From Myxococcales bacterium (GTDB lineage Bacteria; Myxococcota; Polyangia; HGW-17; SLPX01), in contig SLPX01000105.1 in the NCBI GenBank assembly GCA_007131745.1, positions 1-64,000 on the forward strand: DNA of 64,000 bases. Direction: 5' to 3'. Position 1 is the stretch's first letter; the number at the start of each line of letters is the position of its first letter. Positions 15,428 through 48,809 of the stretch are shown here, one piece after another. The notes under the pieces were generated by a model. The model worked only from the letters and a program-made list of their open reading frames with translations, searched no databases and was not told the origin of the DNA. The position numbers and the translations under genes were made by a program.

Positions 15428-17065
15428 CTATTCCGCGTCCATTGCATTTGCTTCAGGTGCTTCAGAGTCTTTTGGAGAGCATTCTTCCTCATTTTGCCGT
15501 TTTCTTCTTATGACGCTTCTGTGAACTTTCTTTTCTCCGGTTCGGAGTTTTCCGTTTTTTGATGAAGTTTTCTTTGATCCGGCATCCTTATCTGCAGGAG
15601 TATTCTTGTCTTTGAGAACCGCCTCTTGTTTCAATTTTGCCTGTTTCATAATCTCCGCAATTCGCGCGCTTTGAGGCAATGGTTTTTTCGAGGACTTCTT
15701 CTTTTCGGCCGTAGAGGTTTTTTTTGTCGACGAAACTTTCTTTTTTCTTGTTTTCCGCGGCCCGGCAAAATGGAGGGGGTCACCTGCCGAGAATGGATCT
15801 ACTGTTGAGGACAAGTCATCGGAAGATGAAGACTTGCTACTGCGATTGTTTTCCGGCCCGATCCATTTCTCGCCAAACAATGAAAACAGTTTGTTTTGCG
15901 CAGAAATGTTTGGAACGGCTTTTCCGTTTTCCCACAACGAGATCGTGGAATGAGAAGTTTCCAGTTTGTTTGCAAGTTCCTTTTGGGTGATGCCGCTTAT
16001 TCGTCGACGGCTGGAAATCCAGGAGGCCAGATCCAGATCTTCAACGTTGTCGGATATGTTTTCGGACAACCGTACCAGGGTTTTAAGCAACAGCCTTTTT
16101 GTTCTGGGACGTGGTTCGGATCTTCCTTTTTCCCACACTGATACTGCCGCTTGTGAAACTCGAAGTTTCCTGGCGAACTCGTTTTGAGTCAGTCCCAATC
16201 GTCGCCTGGTGTTTAACAAAAGGTTTTGCACGGATGTATCAGGCTCGAGAATATTGTTTCCATTGAGTCCGTCCCCCAGCACTTCGGACAATTTGTCATA
16301 TGTGTCGCTGGAAGGAACAATTTGTCCTGTTTCCCAAAGAGATACAACCGTGGTCGAAACGTTGAGCGCTTTGGCCAGTTCTTTTTGTGTGAGATTCATC
16401 TGCAACCGGCGGGAAGTTATCCACCTGACGATTTTTTGTTCATCAGCTCTCGTGGGAAGATGTTCTTCGTCCAGCTTGAGCCTCTTTTCAATTCGTTTCT
16501 GCATCGGAGCGGAAGGGCAGGAATAGGCGTTTTCCCATAGAGAAATGGTGGATTGTTTGACTCCCAACATTCGAGCAAGGTTTTTTTGTGAAAAACCAAG
16601 GGCTTTTCGGTGGGCCTTCATCTTGGCGCCTATCGCTCTATTCCAAACCGGATACGCTTGTTCATCGAATTCGTTGTCTTTTTCACCGCCATTAGGATCA
16701 CCAGCGTGCGCCCACATTGATCGACGATATCTGTTTCGCCGCCGGGGTTTTGCTTCCATAGCAGCAAGCTCTTCCGGGGTTCGGGGGTTCTTCCACTTTT
16801 CTTCCGGGCAATCCAGGATCCTGTATACAAGATCCGCGCGCGGCATCCCTGATTCCGGAAGACCCAAATAGCGGCAGATCTCTCTCAGTTTGGGTTTGGG
16901 AAGGTGCTCTAGAATGACCGGCAATGCTGTCCTTCTTCTGGACATCAGTTCTTTTATGATGTCTTCCTTGGTATCGTTGCCGGCTATGTCCAAGTTTAGA
17001 GTTTGCCCCAAATTGAGAAGAGTGATCCTGCCTAGAGATTCCAATACGGTTTTTGTCAACGACAT
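15428..17065 (-). CDS. Protein with four tandem XRE helix-turn-helix domains
   Basis: The 545-residue protein carries four XRE/Cro-type HTH domains at about 146-195, 214-265, 283-330 and 348-398, each with a recognition helix ending in SLWE or SVWE. Before them is a region with two short SAP-like helical units (around KEDIIKELMSRRR and LREICRYLG). After them is a lysine-rich tail of about 140 residues with KKSSKK and RRKRQ patches, likely DNA-binding or disordered. Four in-line XRE domains are unusual; the protein could bind a long operator array or act as a nucleoid organiser. The ATG at 17065 is preferred to an upstream TTG at 17113. A long AT-rich region precedes the gene. Confidence 0.88.
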   Translation of the reverse strand: MSLTKTVLESLGRITLLNLGQTLNLDIAGNDTKEDIIKELMSRRRTALPVILEHLPKPKLREICRYLGLPESGMPRADLVYRILDCPEEKWKNPRTPEELAAMEAKPRRRNRYRRSMWAHAGDPNGGEKDNEFDEQAYPVWNRAIGAKMKAHRKALGFSQKNLARMLGVKQSTISLWENAYSCPSAPMQKRIEKRLKLDEEHLPTRADEQKIVRWITSRRLQMNLTQKELAKALNVSTTVVSLWETGQIVPSSDTYDKLSEVLGDGLNGNNILEPDTSVQNLLLNTRRRLGLTQNEFARKLRVSQAAVSVWEKGRSEPRPRTKRLLLKTLVRLSENISDNVEDLDLASWISSRRRISGITQKELANKLETSHSTISLWENGKAVPNISAQNKLFSLFGEKWIGPENNRSSKSSSSDDLSSTVDPFSAGDPLHFAGPRKTRKKKVSSTKKTSTAEKKKSSKKPLPQSARIAEIMKQAKLKQEAVLKDKNTPADKDAGSKKTSSKNGKLRTGEKKVHRSVIRRKRQNEEECSPKDSEAPEANAMDAE

Positions 17066-17115
17066 CTCGTACCTGTCTTTGTTTCTTTGGTTATTAGCAT
17101 GTGCTTGGCTCAATA

Positions 17116-35892: not shown

Positions 35893-36312
35893 CTACTTGT
35901 TTCCGTGGTAACCCATCAGTTTGGAGTAGAGTAGAGGGCCGAGGCTGCTGATCATGAGTTTCTCGACTGCATTGTGAACAGCGGTGCGTTCTTCGTCGTC
36001 TTTGTATAGGAATTGAATGCCCATGCCTGGTTCGTGATTCGGATCGATACCGGGGGGAACCGGTTCTCCCGGACGAACCACCCATTTTACTTCGCCCGTC
36101 AGGTTGAAAGGCTCGTTCAATGTCGGGACGTGCAGTTTGAAAATGAACCGTGTTCCCACTTCAAGCGGTTTTTCCGTTTGTATGAACGTTCCGCCTTTAC
36201 AAATGTTTTTCGTATAGTCGGCGAAAAAAGTGTTGAGCTTCTTGTATTCCACCTTGAGTTCTATGGGAACTCTCGGATGGTCTCGCCGATCTGTTACTTT
36301 GTTGTTCTCCAT
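35893..36312 (-). CDS. PilZ domain protein
   Basis: The 139-residue protein is a single PilZ domain. The c-di-GMP-binding elements are RRDHPR near residue 10 (RxxxR) and DYTKNICKGGTFIQ (D/N-x-S-x-x-G-like, here with Asn and Lys substitutions). The C-terminal MGIQFLYKDDEERTAVHNAVEKL matches a group common in Myxococcota. It is a candidate receptor for the c-di-GMP controlled by the HD-GYP protein at 1560-3140, but the link is inference. It is followed 10 bases later by pssA on the same strand, so the two may be cotranscribed. Confidence 0.9.
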   Translation of the reverse strand: MENNKVTDRRDHPRVPIELKVEYKKLNTFFADYTKNICKGGTFIQTEKPLEVGTRFIFKLHVPTLNEPFNLTGEVKWVVRPGEPVPPGIDPNHEPGMGIQFLYKDDEERTAVHNAVEKLMISSLGPLLYSKLMGYHGNK

Positions 36313-36339
36313 AAACCAGCCGCTTTTTTCGGTGACCGA

Positions 36340-36368
36340 GTATATATAACACCTGTTTCAATAGGTGA
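36340..36368 (-). promoter_or_regulatory. Candidate promoter for the PilZ/pssA pair
   Basis: On the minus strand TTCACC (-35, plus 36363-36368) and TATATA (-10, plus 36340-36345) are spaced by 17 bases and lie about 30-55 bases before the PilZ ATG. The -35 match is partial. Confidence 0.3.
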
Positions 36369-36440
36369 AATCAAGTGTATTTTGAATAATATTCACGAGA
36401 ACACTTTGCAAGCAGAAAAGAATGACTTTGGTCATTGTTT

Positions 36441-37070
36441 TCATTTGTCATCATCCATTCGTCGGCCCTGATATTTCAAATCTCTCAGTTTTGCTGTTTT
36501 TCCATGTGTTAGAACCCATGCTCCGATTCCTTGGGGCCATACCTGGTGAACGTCTTTTGTGCCGGCTTGAAGCAGCAAACCGCACAGATCCGAAGGTTCC
36601 AGGTTTGTGGGCCTGCCCCTTAAACGGCGGGCAAGCCTGAGCATGAATCTTCCTAAAAAGCCTTCACCAGCGAGTTCGGCGATTGCCATGACTCCACCCG
36701 GGCGTATGGTTCGACTCCAGGATTCGACCGTAGTGCCAACGTTCCTGATTCTTTGTCCGCCAAGCACTCCGATTGCGAAAAAAGCATCCAAACGAAAGGG
36801 CTCGAGCGGAAGTTCTGTTGGACGGCAGAAAACAGATTTGATGTTTCCACTTTGTCGCGTTTCACCCATGTCGGAAGATTTGATGTTCAGGGAACGGGTT
36901 TCTGATCTGTCGAAAACCGGACACAATACACTGTATCCTTCCGAGGCCAGTTTTAGTGCAATCCGGGTGTTTCCCATGACTCCGACCCTGCAACGAGACG
37001 GATCGTCCAAAAGATTCCCGAGCGCTACTCCAAGGGCCGGGGCGACCATTATTTCAGGTTCTTTTTTCAT
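36441..37070 (-). CDS. SAM-methyltransferase-like protein
   Basis: The 209-residue protein has the layout of a class I methyltransferase: a glycine-containing first strand (CRVGVMGNTRIALKLASEG), an acidic second strand (LCPVFDRSETR), a catalytic-strand region (LDAFFAIGVLGG) and a late IRPGGVMAIAEL strand. Motif I lacks the usual G-x-G, so SAM binding is doubtful, and the protein may be a degenerate or non-methylating relative. GGAG lies 5 bases before the chosen ATG at 37070; an upstream start at 37145 adds 25 residues. It is divergent from cmk. The substrate is unknown. Confidence 0.65.
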   Translation of the reverse strand: MKKEPEIMVAPALGVALGNLLDDPSRCRVGVMGNTRIALKLASEGYSVLCPVFDRSETRSLNIKSSDMGETRQSGNIKSVFCRPTELPLEPFRLDAFFAIGVLGGQRIRNVGTTVESWSRTIRPGGVMAIAELAGEGFLGRFMLRLARRLRGRPTNLEPSDLCGLLLQAGTKDVHQVWPQGIGAWVLTHGKTAKLRDLKYQGRRMDDDK

Positions 37071-37452
37071 TCTTGCTCCGAATGGATGAAATCGTTCGAT
37101 TCGATATGTTTCAAGCCGGTATCCAGTGGTTTTCCGTTCAGCCATCAGATTTGCCGGACAGGTGGTTTTCTATTCGCTGCAATCATGAGCAACGGCTGTC
37201 ATTATTAGGACAACCAAAATATTCTGCAAGTCTCTCAGTTTCATCAATTGACTAACCCGTGCACGCCGTTAATATCGGCGCAGTTCTTTTGGATGCATCG
37301 ATTTATTCGTTGACGCAGAACTTTGCGCTCGAATTTCGTCTGCTTTTCATGTTGTTTGGCGGCTTGTGGCGCTGGAGTCAATCTATAATGCTTTTTTCGT
37401 CGTTGCTTGACGCGGGGACAGCCCGAGGCTAAGTTTCCCCTTAAAGAAAGGG
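37071..37452. other. Divergent intergenic region before cmk
   Basis: This 382-base gap separates the methyltransferase-like gene and cmk. It holds a good sigma-70 promoter toward cmk (listed separately) and a second TATAAT at 37384-37389 with a poor -35. No RNA fold or further gene was recognised. Confidence 0.6.
37248..37275 (+). promoter_or_regulatory. Candidate sigma-70 promoter for cmk-ispH-rpsA
   Basis: TTGACT (37248-37253) and TAATAT (37270-37275) are separated by 16 bases. The start of transcription would leave a leader of about 170 bases before cmk. Confidence 0.45.
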
Positions 37453-38232
37453 ATGTTCATCTCAGAAGGGCTAAGCGTTTTTTTGAAAGAAGTGATTACA
37501 ATAGACGGACCGGCCGGTTCCGGAAAAAGTACGGCTGCAAGATTGACGGCCCATCGCCTGAACGCAACAATGCTGGATACGGGCGCAATTTACCGTTGTG
37601 TCGCCTATGCAGCGGTGAATCGGAATATTGCGACGGGTGATCCGGGATCTCTTGTTGAAATGATCGGTGAAACGGAGATTCGCTTTGATTCCGGTTCAAG
37701 AGAAAATCCCGCGGGCCGGATATTTCTTGACGGGTTGGATGTAACAACGAAGATACGAACGCCGGAAATCAGCCGGGCTGCATCCGAAATAGCGGCACTT
37801 CCGGAGGTAAGGGAAGCATTGCTTGAACTGCAGAGAAAGCAGGCGCTGCAAGGTGAGCAAGGAGTCATGGTGGCTGAGGGCAGAGACATGGGCACGGTGG
37901 TTTTTCCCGATGCTCCTCACAAGTTTTTTCTGTCTGCAGATCCGGCGACAAGGGCTGAAAGGCGCTACCGGGAACTCCTGGAAATGGGAAGAGCAACATC
38001 ATTGGAGGAGGTTCTGGCGGATCAAGAGCAACGAGATCTGCGCGACCGGAATCGACAGACTTCGCCACTTCGACCAGCGGATGATGCCTGTGTAATAGAT
38101 TCTACGAAGATGACCGTGGAAGAAGTGGTGGACAAAATTTTAGAGAAGATCGAGGAGAAAAGAAACAATCCTGGGTTTTTGAATCGACTCGAAATCGGAA
38201 GGCTGAATCAAACGGGAAGGACCGATCGGTGA
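37453..38232 (+). CDS. cmk: Cytidylate kinase
   Basis: The protein has the P-loop IDGPAGSGKST near the N-terminus, the NMP-binding segment (LDTGAIYRCVAYAA), the GRDMGTVVFPDA motif and the SADPATRAERRYREL lid region characteristic of bacterial CMP/dCMP kinase. It phosphorylates CMP and dCMP in the cytoplasm. The ATG at 37453 gives 259 residues and a longer N-terminus than usual; a GTG at 37492, directly before ITIDGPAG, is an alternative start. Its TGA overlaps the GTG of the ispH homologue, which implies translational coupling. The order cmk, ispH, rpsA recurs in other bacteria. Confidence 0.95.
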   Translation: MFISEGLSVFLKEVITIDGPAGSGKSTAARLTAHRLNATMLDTGAIYRCVAYAAVNRNIATGDPGSLVEMIGETEIRFDSGSRENPAGRIFLDGLDVTTKIRTPEISRAASEIAALPEVREALLELQRKQALQGEQGVMVAEGRDMGTVVFPDAPHKFFLSADPATRAERRYRELLEMGRATSLEEVLADQEQRDLRDRNRQTSPLRPADDACVIDSTKMTVEEVVDKILEKIEEKRNNPGFLNRLEIGRLNQTGRTDR

Positions 38233-39176
38233 AGATAATCATTTCTCGTTACGCAAGCGTCTGTTACGGAATCCGGAGGGCGATGCGTCTTCTAAGCGGC
38301 AAGTTCAGGGAGATGGGGCCCGGCTCGGGTTCACTGGTTTGTTGTGGTCCGCTGTTTGGCAGCGAGCCGGTGATGGAGCACCTCAAACGTAAAGGCATGA
38401 AAAGAGTGGAAGGGTTGGAGCAGTTGTCTTCCGAAGACATGGTTGTGCTGCCGGTCTGGGGGGAGGAAATCGAGACCATGGATGAACTGCGTGCCCACGG
38501 GATCAGGATCCTCAACACGACTTGTCCTCGGGATGCCATCTCCCACAAATTGGCTTACCGGTTGGCCAGGGAAGGTTACGGAGTCATCGTTGTCGGCTGT
38601 TCGGACAGCGCTGCGGTAAGGGCTCTTATGAGCAGGGTGGCGAAGGGACGTCGCGAGCAGATGGAAGCCCTGGGGGAAAGCGGAAAGAGAGCCTTTGCAG
38701 GAACAGTCGTGGATGCAACTTGTGGAAAGGATCCCGATCTTCGGCGTATACCTGAAGATGTGACTCATGTGGCCATCATAGCCCAGGCCAATGTCGGTAT
38801 TGAAGCATACCGGACTGTTGTGGCCAAGGCGGCGACGCGCTTCGAAGAGGTGCGCGCATATAACACGGTATGTAGATCTGTAGCGGCCAGGTTTCAAGAA
38901 GCGGCGCGTTTGGCAGAGTTATGCGATGCCTTGTTGATAGTGGGCGACGACAATATCGAAACGAAAGAAATGCGATACTTGTGTAAGTTGTCCGGCAATC
39001 ATGAAGTTTACCTGACGCCCTCCATCGAATTCATACCTCCGGATATTTATGACAGGCATCAGACGGTGGGCATTGTATCTTCAACGGCGACCCCGGATTG
39101 GATCCTGGTCAACGTGGTGGAAGAACTCAGGAGGCATGGAAAGGCCGGTGTTGAAGAAGGACCGGCTGCAGGTTGA
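38229..39176 (+). CDS. IspH/LytB-family protein with Fe-S cysteines kept but catalytic residues replaced
   Basis: The 315-residue protein aligns along its length with 4-hydroxy-3-methylbut-2-enyl diphosphate reductase. The three cluster-binding cysteines are in place: Cys12 (ASVCYGIRRA), Cys99 (LNTTCPRD) and Cys215 (NTVCRSVAARFQEA). By eye, the substrate-binding residues of E. coli IspH are not: His41 is Gly44, His74 is Trp77, His124 is Ser127, Glu126 is Ala129, Thr167 is Asn188, Ser225/Asn227 are Ile243/Thr245, and Ser269 is Ala287. The fold and cluster may survive without reductase activity. The GTG start overlaps the cmk stop, and the position before rpsA is that of true ispH in many genomes. 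A functional IspH may lie elsewhere. I give no gene symbol because activity is doubtful. Confidence 0.85.
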   Translation: MKIIISRYASVCYGIRRAMRLLSGKFREMGPGSGSLVCCGPLFGSEPVMEHLKRKGMKRVEGLEQLSSEDMVVLPVWGEEIETMDELRAHGIRILNTTCPRDAISHKLAYRLAREGYGVIVVGCSDSAAVRALMSRVAKGRREQMEALGESGKRAFAGTVVDATCGKDPDLRRIPEDVTHVAIIAQANVGIEAYRTVVAKAATRFEEVRAYNTVCRSVAARFQEAARLAELCDALLIVGDDNIETKEMRYLCKLSGNHEVYLTPSIEFIPPDIYDRHQTVGIVSSTATPDWILVNVVEELRRHGKAGVEEGPAAG

Positions 39177-39324: not shown

Positions 39325-41274
39325 ATGAGTTCGGACAGTCAGAAAAAATCATCGGAAGAGTCTTTTGAAGCTCTTTTCGAAGCCAGTATGCAAAAAGGCG
39401 ATATAAAAGAGGGTGATATCGTCACAGGTCGTGTCATTCATGTGGGCGAAGAGAATTGTGTCGTGGACATAGGCTACAAGTCGGAGGGGGAGATCCCGTT
39501 AGGCGAATTTCGGGACAGAGAAGGAAAAGTTCAGGTTAAGGAAGGCGATGAAATAGAGGTTCTGCTTGTAAGCAGGGAAGATTCGGATGGATTGGTGATT
39601 CTTTCCAAAGAAAAAGCGGACAAGCTGAAAGTTTGGGACGAAATAAGCGCTGCTTGCGAAAGAGACGAACTCATTGAAGGCACCATTTCCCAGCGCGTAA
39701 AGGGTGGCCTTAATGTCCACATCAAAGGCGGCGTAAAGGCGTTTTTACCCGGCAGCCAAGTGGATCTCCGTCCGGTCCGTAATTTGGACGTGTATATCGG
39801 AAAAACGTACAAGTTCAAGGTGATAAAGTTCAATAAGAAACGGGGAAACATCGTTTTGAGCCGCCGAGTGTTGCTCGAAAAAGAAAGAGCGGATCAAAAA
39901 GCCAAGGTGCTTTCCACTCTGGAAGAGGGCAAGCTCGTCGAAGGGACCGTCAAGAACCTTACCGAATATGGAGCATTTATAGATCTCGGCGGCATTGACG
40001 GATTGCTTCATATTACGGATATGTCTTGGGGCCGCGTCAACCATCCTTCGGAGATATTCAAAGTCGGTGATACGGCTGAAGTGAAAGTTCTGAAATACAA
40101 TTCCGACACGGAAAGGGTGAGTCTTGGACTGAAACAGATCACCGACAACCCATGGAAAACGGCGGAGGAACGTTACGTGCCGGGGACGGTTGTAAAGGGC
40201 AGGGTGGTGAGTATAAAGGATTACGGAGCGTTTATTGAACTCGAGGAGGGTATAGAAGGGCTGATTCATGTCTCGGAAATGAGTTGGACAAGGAGAATCA
40301 AGCATCCTTCCAAGGTCCTGGCGGTAGGGGATACGGTGGAAGCAGTGGTGCTCGATATCGATGCATCGAACAATAGAATCAGCTTGGGCATGAAGCAGCT
40401 GGAACCCAACCCGTACGAAGCGCTGCGAGAGAAATATCCCCCCAACACCGTTGTCAGGGGAAAAATCCGGAACATAGCGGATTTTGGTGTATTTGTGGAA
40501 ATTGAAGACGGTATCGACGGTCTTGTGCACATTTCGGACTTGTCTTGGACCCAGCGTGTTCGGCATCCTTCCGAGCTTTACCAAAAAGGCGAAGAGGTGG
40601 ATGCAGTGGTGCTGGACATAGAGATCGAACAGGACAAGCCCAAGATCAGCCTTGGTATTAAACAGGCTGTGCCGGATCCATGGGAGCGAATACCGGTGGA
40701 TTACCCTCCGGGGAAATTGCTCGAAGTGAATGTTCGAAAGGTGCTGGATTATGGGGCCTTTGTAGAGATTGAACAAGGCATCGACGGTTTCATCCATGTT
40801 TCGGAAATGTCCGAAGATCGCATTGATGACCCCAAAAAATTTCTCACTCCCGGTCAGAAAATCCGCGCTGAAATCATCGCTGTAGATTCCGAGGATCGCA
40901 AGATAGCCTTGTCGCTCAAGGCGGCTCAGAGATCCGAGGAATTGGCCGACATTCAAGGTTTCGGCGGCGTGACCGGTGTGCAGGCCACTCTCGGAGACGT
41001 GCTTAAGGAAAAACTCGGAATGGTCGCCGGGCAGAATAATGTGGAAAAGGAGACTGAATCCCGGCCTGAAGAGACAGCCGAAGAGGTAAAAGAACCCGAG
41101 GCTGAAGGGGATAAGGTCGAAGAAGTAAAGGATACTGAGCCCGAGACAGTGGAAGATGCCGAATGCAAGGATGAACCTGAAGCGGAAAAGGAAGAGTCAT
41201 CGGAAAGTGATGAAGAATCCGGGGAAAAAGACGAATCCAAAGAAGAGAAAGGTGGAAAAACGGAAGGGGAATAA
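39325..41274 (+). CDS. rpsA: 30S ribosomal protein S1
   Basis: Six S1 RNA-binding domains can be counted over about residues 25-545, with repeats 3-6 most regular (YGAFIDL, YGAFIEL, FGVFVEI, YGAFVEI, each followed by HIT/HVS-type strands). Protein S1 helps the 30S subunit bind and unfold mRNA during initiation. The domain count and about 650-residue size fit the Gram-negative type, although the final 90 residues are a lineage-specific Glu-rich tail. AGGAGG lies about 10 bases before the ATG. A short unannotated stretch of about 150 bases separates it from the IspH homologue; it may contain its own promoter. Confidence 0.96.
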   Translation: MSSDSQKKSSEESFEALFEASMQKGDIKEGDIVTGRVIHVGEENCVVDIGYKSEGEIPLGEFRDREGKVQVKEGDEIEVLLVSREDSDGLVILSKEKADKLKVWDEISAACERDELIEGTISQRVKGGLNVHIKGGVKAFLPGSQVDLRPVRNLDVYIGKTYKFKVIKFNKKRGNIVLSRRVLLEKERADQKAKVLSTLEEGKLVEGTVKNLTEYGAFIDLGGIDGLLHITDMSWGRVNHPSEIFKVGDTAEVKVLKYNSDTERVSLGLKQITDNPWKTAEERYVPGTVVKGRVVSIKDYGAFIELEEGIEGLIHVSEMSWTRRIKHPSKVLAVGDTVEAVVLDIDASNNRISLGMKQLEPNPYEALREKYPPNTVVRGKIRNIADFGVFVEIEDGIDGLVHISDLSWTQRVRHPSELYQKGEEVDAVVLDIEIEQDKPKISLGIKQAVPDPWERIPVDYPPGKLLEVNVRKVLDYGAFVEIEQGIDGFIHVSEMSEDRIDDPKKFLTPGQKIRAEIIAVDSEDRKIALSLKAAQRSEELADIQGFGGVTGVQATLGDVLKEKLGMVAGQNNVEKETESRPEETAEEVKEPEAEGDKVEEVKDTEPETVEDAECKDEPEAEKEESSESDEESGEKDESKEEKGGKTEGE

Positions 41275-41371: not shown

Positions 41372-41872
41372 ATGACGGAGATTCACAAGATAGGTCTTTT
41401 GAGCGATACCCACTTGCAGAGCTTGTCCTCAGATTTGCTGGAGAAATGCCGTACCCATTTTGGTGATTGTCCGCTTATTTTTCACGCCGGGGATGTGACT
41501 GCTCCCGGCGTGCTGACTGAGTTGGAAACTTACGGGTGGAAAGTCGTGGCGGTACGGGGCAACATGGATGTTCATCCCGAACTGGGAAAACTTCCCCGAA
41601 AAAGGGTTGTAAATATTGGAGAATTGAGTGTAGGCCTTTGTCATGGCTGGGGTGCGCCGGCGTCGATCAAGGAAAGGATTTTGGCGGAGTTTTCTTCTCC
41701 GCCTCAAGTCATAGTCTATGGCCACACACACCAGTTCGACGATTCGAGTTATGGTGGGGTGCGATTCCTGAATCCGGGTTCGCCCACCGACAAGAGATGG
41801 GCGCCATATAAGTCAATGGCGCGACTTGTCGTGGAAGGCATGGACGTGCGTTGCGAGATGATTCGCGTCTGA
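41372..41872 (+). CDS. YfcE-like calcineurin-type metallophosphoesterase
   Basis: The 166-residue protein carries all the metal-binding motifs in order: SDTH near residue 11, HAGD, RGNMD, CHGWG and YGHTH. This is the small YfcE/MJ0936 type of phosphodiesterase, likely manganese-dependent and cytoplasmic; the physiological substrate is not known for most members. It starts about 100 bases after rpsA on the same strand and converges with the MopE-repeat protein gene 37 bases on. Confidence 0.92.
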   Translation: MTEIHKIGLLSDTHLQSLSSDLLEKCRTHFGDCPLIFHAGDVTAPGVLTELETYGWKVVAVRGNMDVHPELGKLPRKRVVNIGELSVGLCHGWGAPASIKERILAEFSSPPQVIVYGHTHQFDDSSYGGVRFLNPGSPTDKRWAPYKSMARLVVEGMDVRCEMIRV

Positions 41873-45504: not shown

Positions 45505-46914
45505 GTGTTGAAGCGGGACGAAAAAAACAAAAACGCGGAAGAGGGTTTGCTCGACCTGGAAAACAGCCGTCTAAAAAGGGGCAGCGAAGAATCCGCGGAT
45601 GGTTTGCGGGATTTGGTCATGTTGGTACCGGCTGCTGGAAAGGGTTTCCGGTTGTTTGAGGGTCATGGCCATGTACCGAAGGCTTTTTTGCCGGTCAATG
45701 GACGTCCGTTGATTCTTCGGACCTTGGAGGTGTTGGCGACTTGTCCGGGAATTTCCCGGATTCTGGTGGGTGTGCCGCGCGGATGGAAGAAATTTTTGGA
45801 AGAGGAGATAGGAAAATCCTGGTGGGCCGTGGATGGAACAAGACCGAAAATTTCGATTTTCCAGGGTGGGCGGACCCGTTTTGACACGGTTAGCACTCTT
45901 TTTTCGAGAGCGTTTCCTGCTAAAGAGAAATCCCGTTCCAGGTTCAAAGGACGTGAAGGTTTAACAGGGATTCACGACGGAGTCAGGCCTCTCGTATCCC
46001 ACGATCTTGTGCAGGCTGTAGCCGAAGCGGCCCGCCGACAAGGTGGAGCGGTGCCCTTGATGGAGTGTGAAGATACCATCAAGATAAGAGGCGAAAATTG
46101 TGTTCTAGGCCCGACACTTGATCGAGATAATTTGGGTCGTGTGCAGACCCCCCAGGTTTTTCACACAAAGCTTCTTGGAAAAGTTTTGAGCGATGCTTGC
46201 GCCGGGGATGACTCAGCCAAGGAGAAATTCCGCTATTCGGGATTTGACGAAGCTTTGTTGTTCCAGCAAGCGGGATACCCGGTGGCATGGGTCGCAGGAG
46301 AAGCCGAAAACATCAAATTGACCTGGTCTTCGCAGATTCCGTTGGTTGAGTCGCTCCTTCGAAGCGCTTTTCGAAAGGATCTGGTTTTGCGACCGCCGGA
46401 AATTCCGGAGCCGAATGCGGGCGGGGAAGAGTTTCGTGTTGGCGTGGGTTTTGATGCTCACCGGTTCGTTGCGGGACGACCGCTTTTTCTCGGGGGTGTG
46501 AAGGTGGCCCATGATATGGGGCTGGACGCGCATTCTGACGGGGATGTGCTTGTTCATGCCATAGCCGATGCCGTGTTGGGGGCCGCGGCGCTGGGAGACA
46601 TAGGAGGGTACTTTCCATCGGGGCGGCCTGAAACAAAGGATTTGCCGGGTGATTATTTGCTTAGATCAGTTCTGGAACTCATCGCAGCCCGGGGATGGAG
46701 AGTATGTTTTGTCGACTCGGTGATTATAACGCAGACGCCGACCATATCACCATATAGGGACCGGATACGAAAGTCCCTTGCGGAATGGCTCGGTATTTCG
46801 GTAAAACAGGTATCGGTGAAGGCGACATCGACCGACGGTATCGGGTTTGCCGGCCGTAGAGAGGGAATGGCCGTTCAGGCCGCTGTTGTAATAAAACGGT
46901 TGGATAAGAGTTAA
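45505..46914 (+). CDS. ispDF: Bifunctional IspD/IspF (MEP cytidylyltransferase and cyclodiphosphate synthase)
   Basis: The N-terminal two-thirds are IspD (VPAAGKGFRL, PKAFLPVNGRPL, IHDGVRPLVS, LGRVQTPQVF), the cytidylyltransferase that makes CDP-ME. The C-terminal third is IspF, with the metal-binding Asp/His in GFDAHRF, HSDGDVLVHAIADAVLGAAALGDIGGYFP and KATSTDGIGFAGRREG. Fusion of steps 3 and 5 of the MEP pathway is known in several bacteria. The start is uncertain: GTG 45505 gives an extra 38-residue polar N-terminus, while an internal ATG at about 45619 begins right before the conserved VPAAGKG. It is divergent from the VWA lipoprotein and is followed 29 bases later by a membrane protein. 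Confidence 0.95.
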   Translation: MLKRDEKNKNAEEGLLDLENSRLKRGSEESADGLRDLVMLVPAAGKGFRLFEGHGHVPKAFLPVNGRPLILRTLEVLATCPGISRILVGVPRGWKKFLEEEIGKSWWAVDGTRPKISIFQGGRTRFDTVSTLFSRAFPAKEKSRSRFKGREGLTGIHDGVRPLVSHDLVQAVAEAARRQGGAVPLMECEDTIKIRGENCVLGPTLDRDNLGRVQTPQVFHTKLLGKVLSDACAGDDSAKEKFRYSGFDEALLFQQAGYPVAWVAGEAENIKLTWSSQIPLVESLLRSAFRKDLVLRPPEIPEPNAGGEEFRVGVGFDAHRFVAGRPLFLGGVKVAHDMGLDAHSDGDVLVHAIADAVLGAAALGDIGGYFPSGRPETKDLPGDYLLRSVLELIAARGWRVCFVDSVIITQTPTISPYRDRIRKSLAEWLGISVKQVSVKATSTDGIGFAGRREGMAVQAAVVIKRLDKS

Positions 46915-46943
46915 TATAGGTAATTGCGAAAAAAGGAATGTCC

Positions 46944-48809
46944 ATGACGGATAAAACAGATACGGAAAAAGAAATGTTTTCATCTGGTGATAGTTTTTCC
47001 GGTTCCGGAGAAGTAGGTGATGAAGGGGTTGAAAAAGATTTTTTCGAGTCGGACAAGTCCATGCGGGAATTGAGTGATGGAAGTGGTGTCGAACTGGACA
47101 AGGATGCGGCCGCGGAATTGGAAAAAGTGATGAAACCCGGTGGGGGGAGGGCGAGGCATCCGGTGATGGCCGCTTTGGTGATAGTCGCCAGCTTGGCGAT
47201 GTTGTGGCTTATGCGTGAAGACGTGGCCTACTTTTTTCAAAGAGGCGACCCAATAGAACTTGGCGATGCGCCCGACGCCGTGGAAGCGGGAAAGCTCAAG
47301 GACAACACGTATGTAAGAATAAGGACACATCCCGATATCAACACTTGGGCAACGGTATCCCGGCGGGGTTGCAACGTGGGACCCAAAAGCGCTCCAAAAA
47401 GTTTTTATTCCTTTTACACGGTAAGAGACACGGGTGATCGCCTCATCGTAAGACGTTCTCTTGATTGGCAGCAAAGGACGGAAGAGCAGAAGCGAAAAGT
47501 CATAGAACTCGACGTGTCGGGGCGGCTACGGCTTTTTGCAAAAACAGGGGATTATTTCGTCAAATACAGAGAGTTTCTGGCCCAAACAGCCAAAGAAAAA
47601 CCTGCGATGCACAAGCAGCACGAGATCCCTACAAAGGAGTTGATAGCTGGGTTGGGGAATCCTAACGCTGTTGTTCAGGACACCGAAGGCCGGAGGGTCC
47701 ACATGGAACCCCGAATGGAAGTTGCGCTCTATGCTTCTTTTGAAGACGAGTTGGAAATGAGCGTGATTCGGGGACACACTTTCAGGGTAAGGAAAATCAC
47801 TTTTTCCGGCGGTGACGGACCGGCTACCTGTCGACCGGGCGGTCCCACCAGGGGTAGCCGGGTTGTATTGGAAAAAGATCCTGAAACTCTTGATTTCGGC
47901 AGGCTGGCCGATGGAATCATATTTTCTTCTCTTGTAGCTGCGGATTCAGGCAGTCCTGAAGACGAGGTTGGTGCAGCACGGAAAACACTATCTCCAGGGG
48001 TAGCCGAAAAGGGTGAGCATCCGAGGGATATCCATGTAAAAGTGCCCGTATCGACAAATGTGTATGATTTTGAATCCGGCGTTCAGATTCCCTTTAAAGA
48101 GGGGCGACTGGTTGTGGGCGAAGGAGGAGCTTGCGGCGGAAAGGAAGGAGAGCGTCGCACTTTCAACATGGAGGCAGCGCCTTTTGCAGAAAGGAGCGCA
48201 GCGGAACTGTATGTTGCCCGGTTCGGTTTTCCCTACAAGCTTGTCGGAGAAAATCCCGTAGCGTTTGAGTTTGTGCTCAAGATGGAGCACGATCAGGGTT
48301 TGAGAATGTTGAAAAGACAGCAAAGGGGTGATCCTCACACGGTGGACTTTCGTACGGAATGGTACATTGCGAAATGGAACGAACTGAAACTGTATGAAGA
48401 TCATATCCTCATAGAGCCGGTGCGGCCCAACCACCCTTTGCCACACAAGGTTGTAAAACGCAAAGCAGACCCGAAAACAAATGCTGCAGATTCAGACGAA
48501 GACTTGGACCTCGCGAAAAGAGAGATTGCCGAGCGACGTGTTCCGGCTCTGGATCTTGAACTTGTGAAAAAGCGCCTGGAAGGACATATCAAAATTGAGC
48601 CCGACAAAATCCGCAGGATACGTGTCACCACTCAGAGACGATTGCCCGCTGGGTCATTTATTGTGCTCAGCGGCGAAACTCCGGAGGGTTACTGGTACTA
48701 TCCGCTCATTGCCTTGCTCTTGATCGGTTTCATTCTTTTCAATCTCTGGTCCATCAGAAATTATTTCAAGTATGTGCGCCCCGCTGAAAAGCGAGCCGTA
48801 AGCGAGTGA
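46944..48809 (+). CDS. Bitopic membrane protein of unknown function
   Basis: The 621-residue protein has an acidic N-terminal tail, a membrane helix at about 72-90, a large soluble region of about 480 residues and a second helix near the C-terminus (about 583-601), with a short basic tail. The region between the helices should lie in the periplasm. It contains paired strand motifs such as TVRDTGDRLIVRRSLDW, one Cys-containing loop and a Glu/Lys-rich part, none matching a family I know. The ATG at 46944 is chosen since AAAGGA is 6 bases upstream; ATG 46938 is only one base from that site. It follows ispDF closely and may share its transcript. Confidence 0.75.
   Translation: MTDKTDTEKEMFSSGDSFSGSGEVGDEGVEKDFFESDKSMRELSDGSGVELDKDAAAELEKVMKPGGGRARHPVMAALVIVASLAMLWLMREDVAYFFQRGDPIELGDAPDAVEAGKLKDNTYVRIRTHPDINTWATVSRRGCNVGPKSAPKSFYSFYTVRDTGDRLIVRRSLDWQQRTEEQKRKVIELDVSGRLRLFAKTGDYFVKYREFLAQTAKEKPAMHKQHEIPTKELIAGLGNPNAVVQDTEGRRVHMEPRMEVALYASFEDELEMSVIRGHTFRVRKITFSGGDGPATCRPGGPTRGSRVVLEKDPETLDFGRLADGIIFSSLVAADSGSPEDEVGAARKTLSPGVAEKGEHPRDIHVKVPVSTNVYDFESGVQIPFKEGRLVVGEGGACGGKEGERRTFNMEAAPFAERSAAELYVARFGFPYKLVGENPVAFEFVLKMEHDQGLRMLKRQQRGDPHTVDFRTEWYIAKWNELKLYEDHILIEPVRPNHPLPHKVVKRKADPKTNAADSDEDLDLAKREIAERRVPALDLELVKKRLEGHIKIEPDKIRRIRVTTQRRLPAGSFIVLSGETPEGYWYYPLIALLLIGFILFNLWSIRNYFKYVRPAEKRAVSE

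Follow-up and report, generated by a model that had tools for sequence, protein, structure and literature searches.

A divergent IspH-fold protein lacking IspH catalytic residues, encoded between cmk and rpsA in a Myxococcales bacterium

Positions 1 to 64,000 of contig SLPX01000105.1 from a Myxococcales bacterium (assembly GCA_007131745.1), hereafter the window, encode between cmk and rpsA a protein homologous to IspH (LytB), the reductase of (E)-4-hydroxy-3-methylbut-2-enyl diphosphate (HMBPP) that ends the methylerythritol phosphate (MEP) pathway. The protein keeps the three cluster cysteines of IspH and none of eight residues that bind HMBPP or relay protons to it. The features of the locus are collected in Table 1. 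The four-nucleotide overlap between the start of the ispH-like gene and the stop of cmk suggests that the two are translationally coupled, as an initial annotation of this DNA had proposed; the ispDF fusion that it had noted nearby is also present. The database's gene call for the ispH-like open reading frame (ORF) starts at Met19, after Cys12, a truncation by the gene caller. Five of the eight closest family proteins likewise start after Cys12, likely for the same reason, given the late call for the window gene itself.

Table 1. Features of the ispH-like locus and its surroundings in the window.
Feature	Position	Strand	Basis or remark
cmk, (d)CMP kinase	37453..38232	+	TIGR00017, 226.2 bits vs cut-off 135.55
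Shine-Dalgarno-like GGAAGGA	38215..38221	+	7 nt 5' of GTG start, read in sequence
GTGA overlap, ispH-like start/cmk stop	38229..38232	+	sequence; 4 nt
Divergent IspH-fold (LytB family) protein without HMBPP-reductase catalytic residues	38229..39176	+	315 aa, GTG start
Cys12 codon, cluster ligand position 1	38262..38264	+	alignment
Cys99 codon, cluster ligand position 2	38523..38525	+	alignment
Cys215 codon, cluster ligand position 3	38871..38873	+	alignment
rpsA, ribosomal protein S1, separate gene	39325..41274	+	80.6% identity to AUK157 over 540 residues
YfcE-like metallophosphoesterase, synteny partner	41372..41872	+	PF12850; order matches L001
ispDF fusion	45505..46914	+	PF01128, PF02542; order matches L001

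The ispH-like protein is a full-length member of the LytB/IspH family (PF02401, E = 1.1e-39, 136.8 bits against a cut-off of 24.5). It scores 118.1 bits against the ispH equivalog model TIGR00216, whose cut-off is 187.85, and all eight of the IspH-type NCBIfam models that match it do so below their cut-offs. The nearest solved structure is IspH of A. aeolicus (2.4e-28), E. coli IspH being a weaker match (about 2e-7). The predicted structure has the three-domain IspH fold, and a scan of domain families found no added DNA- or RNA-binding domain. Like IspH, NadA and Dph2 are three-domain, three-cysteine [4Fe-4S] enzymes with an open apical iron, and the window protein resembles them in having one cysteine per domain. 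IspH-S1 fusion proteins (PRK00087/NF000907) join the two parts that are adjacent in the window as well, but here these are two ORFs, and the fusion model, with its cut-off of 624, scores 132.5 bits. Other apparent IspH fusions occur in the database, with LytB listed together with PF01048, PF01894 or PF13380 (P0053, P0061, P0062; P0018; P0011).

Beside the window's own entry, the protein database holds seven close relatives (43-64% identity), and two more, P0057 and P0058 (36% identity), came from a search with a profile; each search scored only about 8000 candidates, and further members may be missed. P0057 is the protein of AUK157, a Deltaproteobacteria bacterium metagenome-assembled genome (locus L001), and differs from it only in the writing of the first residue. 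AUK157 is the sole genome found to carry a family member. A contig scan with the window protein alone gave no match, and the alignment-based scan used two strict peptide patterns that returned this one locus, which makes it no gauge of rarity in genomes. A search of 96 relatives of AUK157 with the profile of the family gave one strong match, in AUK157 itself (425.6 bits), the weak matches in two others (G020, G029) being canonical IspH. In a phylum sample, 89 of 377 genomes gave a match. We retrieved 29 of the other loci and inspected the residues of 19 of the matches from the 88 other genomes; the remainder are judged solely by their scores, of at most 117.1 bits compared with 425.6. The literature searched, judged from search listings, turned up no description of such an IspH-like protein.

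A tree built from 44 rows sets the ten members apart on one side of a branch (support 100/100), the stem being 1.09 changes per column long. Pro75, Arg101, Gly140, Leu148, Arg154, Phe156, His180, Tyr194, Ala201, Phe205 and Val294 are present in all ten members and in none of 28 canonical rows; Gly140, Leu148, Arg154 and Phe156 lie within or next to an insertion that has a longer helix (modelled as H128-147), a stretch that is mostly gap in the canonical rows shown. The family thus differs from IspH/LytB (TIGR00216, PF02401) in its sub-equivalog score, its insertion and its own invariant residues, as well as in the replacement of almost every residue involved in binding or protonating HMBPP. 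The C-terminal TPDW region, initially described as conserved, is so for PDW in the eight closest members (8/8) and is missing from the AUK157-type pair P0057/P0058. Sequencing or frame error was ruled out by the occurrence of the same pattern in ten members. It might be supposed that the gene is a decaying ispH relic under weak constraint, and the very long stem, the scores of several other MEP enzymes below their equivalog cut-offs, and mevalonate genes that would make ispH dispensable (both described below) are consistent with that. However, the frames are intact in the two loci available as nucleotide sequence (window and L001; the other members are predicted proteins only), the eight close members share 70 identical columns and average 59% identity per column, new residues are invariant throughout the family, and the cysteines are specifically retained. 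We regard a relic as highly improbable.

For the active-site comparison we used a MAFFT alignment of 45 rows, nine from the family and 36 canonical, and an alignment to solved IspHs. Cys12, Cys96 and Cys197 of E. coli IspH correspond to Cys12, Cys99 and Cys215 of the window protein (3/3), bearing out the initial annotation on the length of the protein and the placement of its cysteines. In the 45-row alignment, E. coli His41, His74, His124, Glu126 and Ser269 are replaced by Gly44, Trp77, Ser127, Ala129 and Ala287. Thr167, Ser225 and Asn227 align with Ala187, Asn242 and Glu244, while Asn188 pairs with Thr168 and Ile243 with Ser226; a one-residue gap near Ser225/Asn227 lowers the certainty of those pairings. 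The claim that eight catalytic residues are replaced therefore stands (0/8 kept), with different partners for Thr167, Ser225 and Asn227, and comparison with the 36 canonical rows restores none of the eight to the window protein. His41, His74, His124 and Thr167 are each kept in none of the nine family rows. The 36 canonical rows hold the eight positions except for Tyr in place of His74 (P0012) and Ser in place of Thr167 (L042), two incomplete rows (P0055, L043) being gapped at some of them; Cys at the His74 position is found solely in P0057/P0058. Such a loss of the active site across the family rows is far beyond chance. P0012, a canonical-looking IspH apart from that Tyr, is the top non-member match of the family profile (174 bits), and its placement in the tree is not settled. 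Cys232 was considered as a fourth cluster ligand and is present in 10/10 members but also in 3/28 canonical rows; the predicted strand order would put it at the start of a strand, which we take as off-site, and a ligand role is not proposed.

A review (PMC8837944) reports that the E126Q variant of E. coli IspH retains 0.3% of the activity of the wild type, E126A/D and H124A/F being nearly inactive; PMC9745026 states that losing any one cluster cysteine abolishes IspH activity. Taken with the loss of catalytic residues, these mutant activities make it very unlikely that the window protein carries out the canonical HMBPP reaction via the canonical mechanism. The protein could still be an HMBPP reductase, the last MEP enzyme, if its site had been rebuilt, for example with Arg101 for the diphosphate and Ser/Thr127, Glu244 or water for protons. 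Its gene occupies the ispH locus and is the sole LytB gene of AUK157, the open-iron cysteine triad and fold are preserved, and IspC, IspE and IspG of AUK157 and IspDF of both the window and AUK157 retain their main catalytic motifs. Against this stand the loss of all three His and Thr167 in 9/9 rows and of Glu126 in 8/9, the near inactivity of single Glu126 or His124 variants in that source, and, in AUK157, the presence of mevalonate genes and the lack of a clear Dxs to feed the route. We judge a rebuilt HMBPP reductase to be decidedly unlikely.

The gene order at L001 is pssA, a PilZ gene, ispE, an unassigned gene, cmk, the ispH-like gene, rpsA, a phosphoesterase gene, a von Willebrand factor type A protein gene, ispDF, and a conserved unassigned gene, with ispE, ispDF and the ispH-like gene all within 8.5 kb. 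The window agrees with this order, minus ispE and plus one MopE-type gene; ispE lies at 7735-8598 of L001, flanked by the PilZ gene and the unassigned gene, the matching window interval is 36312-36441, and AUK157 IspE has no relative in the 64-kb window (best E 0.58). In G145, a genome of the phylum sample, a canonical IspH gene directly follows cmk, the next gene not being rpsA. Because a canonical-IspH genome has the same adjacency, the cmk-ispH position is ancestral, in keeping with the earlier view that this is the normal ispH locus; for the same reason, horizontal import of the divergent gene is not favoured. The gene divergent from cmk (window 36441-37145, minus strand; L001 8595-9425, minus strand) is 35% conserved, lacks a Pfam or NCBIfam match, and encodes a product that by eye resembles a worn methyltransferase. 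Directly after ispDF, window 46938-48809 (plus strand) encodes 623 aa without a Pfam match, conserved after ispDF in AUK157 (36%) and matched more weakly by genes that neighbour ispDF in G020 and G029. Elsewhere in the window, 15428-17113 (minus strand) encodes a 561-aa protein with four tandem HTH_3 (XRE-type) matches, an unusual arrangement.

The initial annotation had expected a real IspH elsewhere in the genome. That expectation found no support in AUK157 (G001, 5.1 Mb), where a PF02401 search returned one match, the divergent gene itself, and no second, canonical ispH. AUK157 does have IspC, IspDF, IspE and IspG. IspE passes its model (TIGR00154, 171.7 against a cut-off of 138.7), but IspC (TIGR00243, 220.6 against 315.7) and IspG (TIGR00612, 252.9 against 280.25) fall below theirs; in the window IspDF, the IspD half is divergent (TIGR00453, 135.9 against 181.3) and the IspF half exceeds its cut-off (TIGR00151, 184 against 116.45). 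Alignment to solved enzymes shows that AUK157 IspC keeps its motifs (DSE, SGG, HPxW, NK..E), that IspG keeps CPGCGR as well as NGPGE with the third Cys, and that the main catalytic motifs persist in AUK157 IspE and window IspF, all of which we take to have their usual functional meaning. Departures are ANKE to ASKE and DSEH to DSEL in AUK157 IspC, and Asp for the Glu of KATTTE in window IspF. When three other genomes are used to define invariant columns, AUK157 retains 85/161 of these in IspC, 102/141 in IspDF and 32/72 in IspH; A. aeolicus and E. coli keep 52 and 57 of the same 72 IspH columns. For IspG, AUK157 keeps 106/267, a figure from two references only and maybe from another subtype. 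All the MEP enzymes thus diverge to some extent, but IspH has lost the very residues of catalysis. Dxs was not clearly found in AUK157, the best PF13292 match being 38.8 bits, in a 296-aa frame that by eye adjoins an apparent transketolase C-half; three other genomes score 366-395 bits. The nearest relatives of window IspDF, P0065, P0066 and P0067 (46-48% identity, among the best 120 of 1113 matches), have TKAL or TKIL for the PKQ of canonical IspD and may carry an altered IspD.

AUK157 also has a mevalonate-type cluster with IDI-2, hydroxymethylglutaryl-CoA (HMG-CoA) reductase and mevalonate kinase, all above cut-off, on a contig that ends inside the mevalonate kinase gene; composition gives no support to contamination of the bin as its source. 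G145 has canonical Dxs, IspC, IspF and IspH together with a mevalonate cluster including mevalonate diphosphate decarboxylase (MDD) (L066, L068; IspG was not searched there), and so apparently carries both pathways. The order GHMP match, MDD, third GHMP match recurs in G145, G004 and G029, by eye followed in G145 by HMG-CoA reductase, and squalene-synthase-like genes appear, also by eye, beside the G145 cluster. Among 144 genomes sampled from the class to which AUK157 belongs, LytB of any kind occurs in just 3, one of them AUK157, and HMG-CoA reductase is found in 8 of 10 tested, for which reasons the class looks mainly mevalonate-using.

The explanation we favour, at a probability of about 0.62, is that the gene is the original ispH of this lineage, passed down at its site between cmk and rpsA, and that its product no longer reduces HMBPP but has turned into another kind of IspH-fold protein, probably one with a [4Fe-4S] cluster. 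Ancestors would have had both pathways, as G145 apparently has, and mevalonate-derived isopentenyl diphosphate (IPP) would have made the last MEP step dispensable. The substrate pocket would then have been rebuilt under selection; the alignment and model show the HMBPP-binding and proton-relay residues lost, the three cysteine positions and the fold kept, and new family-wide residues fixed: Pro75 and Arg101, near the His74 and Cys99 positions in sequence, the KGRREQ...R154-F156 insertion, and PEDVxH180. The weakest step is the last, in which the protein would belong to a re-directed MEP-type branch, either as its final member or in response to a signal that the branch sends, binding or reducing a ligand other than HMBPP at its open iron site. 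Such a role seems the most likely because IspC, IspDF, IspE and IspG persist, with ispE and ispDF within 8.5 kb in AUK157; this suggests an MEP-type branch still running there for another purpose, and our preference is for a new iron-sulfur function connected with that branch. A stronger version is unlikely, though it merits statement: that the whole MEP pathway was re-purposed in this lineage to yield a C5 or cyclodiphosphate product other than IPP or dimethylallyl diphosphate, with the rebuilt IspH as terminal iron-sulfur enzyme. In AUK157 the middle of the pathway (IspC, IspDF, IspE, IspG) is kept while entry (no clear Dxs, transketolase-type halves only) and exit (IspH) are changed, hence the thought of another product.

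The nearest described case found is Listeria, in which, according to PMC13001223, a partial MEP pathway to methylerythritol cyclodiphosphate (MEcDP) exists beside mevalonate-derived IPP and is read as stress signalling, L. innocua being without IspG and IspH, and L. monocytogenes IspG being defective. AUK157 resembles Listeria in keeping upstream MEP genes where mevalonate genes could supply IPP; it differs in that IspG is kept and IspH rebuilt rather than lost. This precedent, and a review that argues that the MEP pathway senses stress through its Fe-S enzymes (PMC11192765), would suit a non-catalytic, cluster-based sensor or regulator, of oxygen or redox state or of MEcDP/HMBPP, perhaps coupled to translation via cmk and rpsA. 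The retention of cysteines with loss of catalytic residues and the new conserved insertion fit as well. Yet no DNA- or RNA-binding domain has been added, and the cmk neighbourhood, being ancestral, is uninformative on function. We consider such a sensor fairly unlikely; of the initial proposal of a neofunctionalised or regulatory protein, the first half is upheld, probably as an iron-sulfur protein, and the regulatory half is possible but not favoured over a new catalytic role.

Several observations weigh against a gene turned from HMBPP reduction to a new role in a putatively mevalonate-using lineage. Ser269 is kept in 4/9 family rows, and single members keep Glu126 (P0009), Ser225 (P0006) and Asn227 (L001), each 1/9. 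The completeness of AUK157 is not given, and the lack of a second ispH or of Dxs there may reflect missing sequence. The lowered IspC, IspG and IspD scores may point to gradual decay of the MEP branch in its entirety. Model searches of AUK157 found neither MDD nor HMG-CoA synthase, which leaves a full mevalonate pathway there as our inference; the synthase model also missed two of five other genomes with HMG-CoA reductase (G002, G004) and G145, and the MDD model missed one of the five (G005). Within the window itself, ispDF alone was found among pathway genes.

IspH is, according to PMC8837944, an essential enzyme and a drug target in many bacteria, and its active site is otherwise nearly invariant, with two substitutions at eight positions over 36 canonical rows, gaps aside. 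The sole family member with a source-given name (P0007) is labelled an HMBPP reductase, an annotation trap. If the favoured explanation is true, the scaffold of IspH is able to support different chemistry or sensing, and the retention of MEP genes in some mevalonate-using bacteria would become a testable question.
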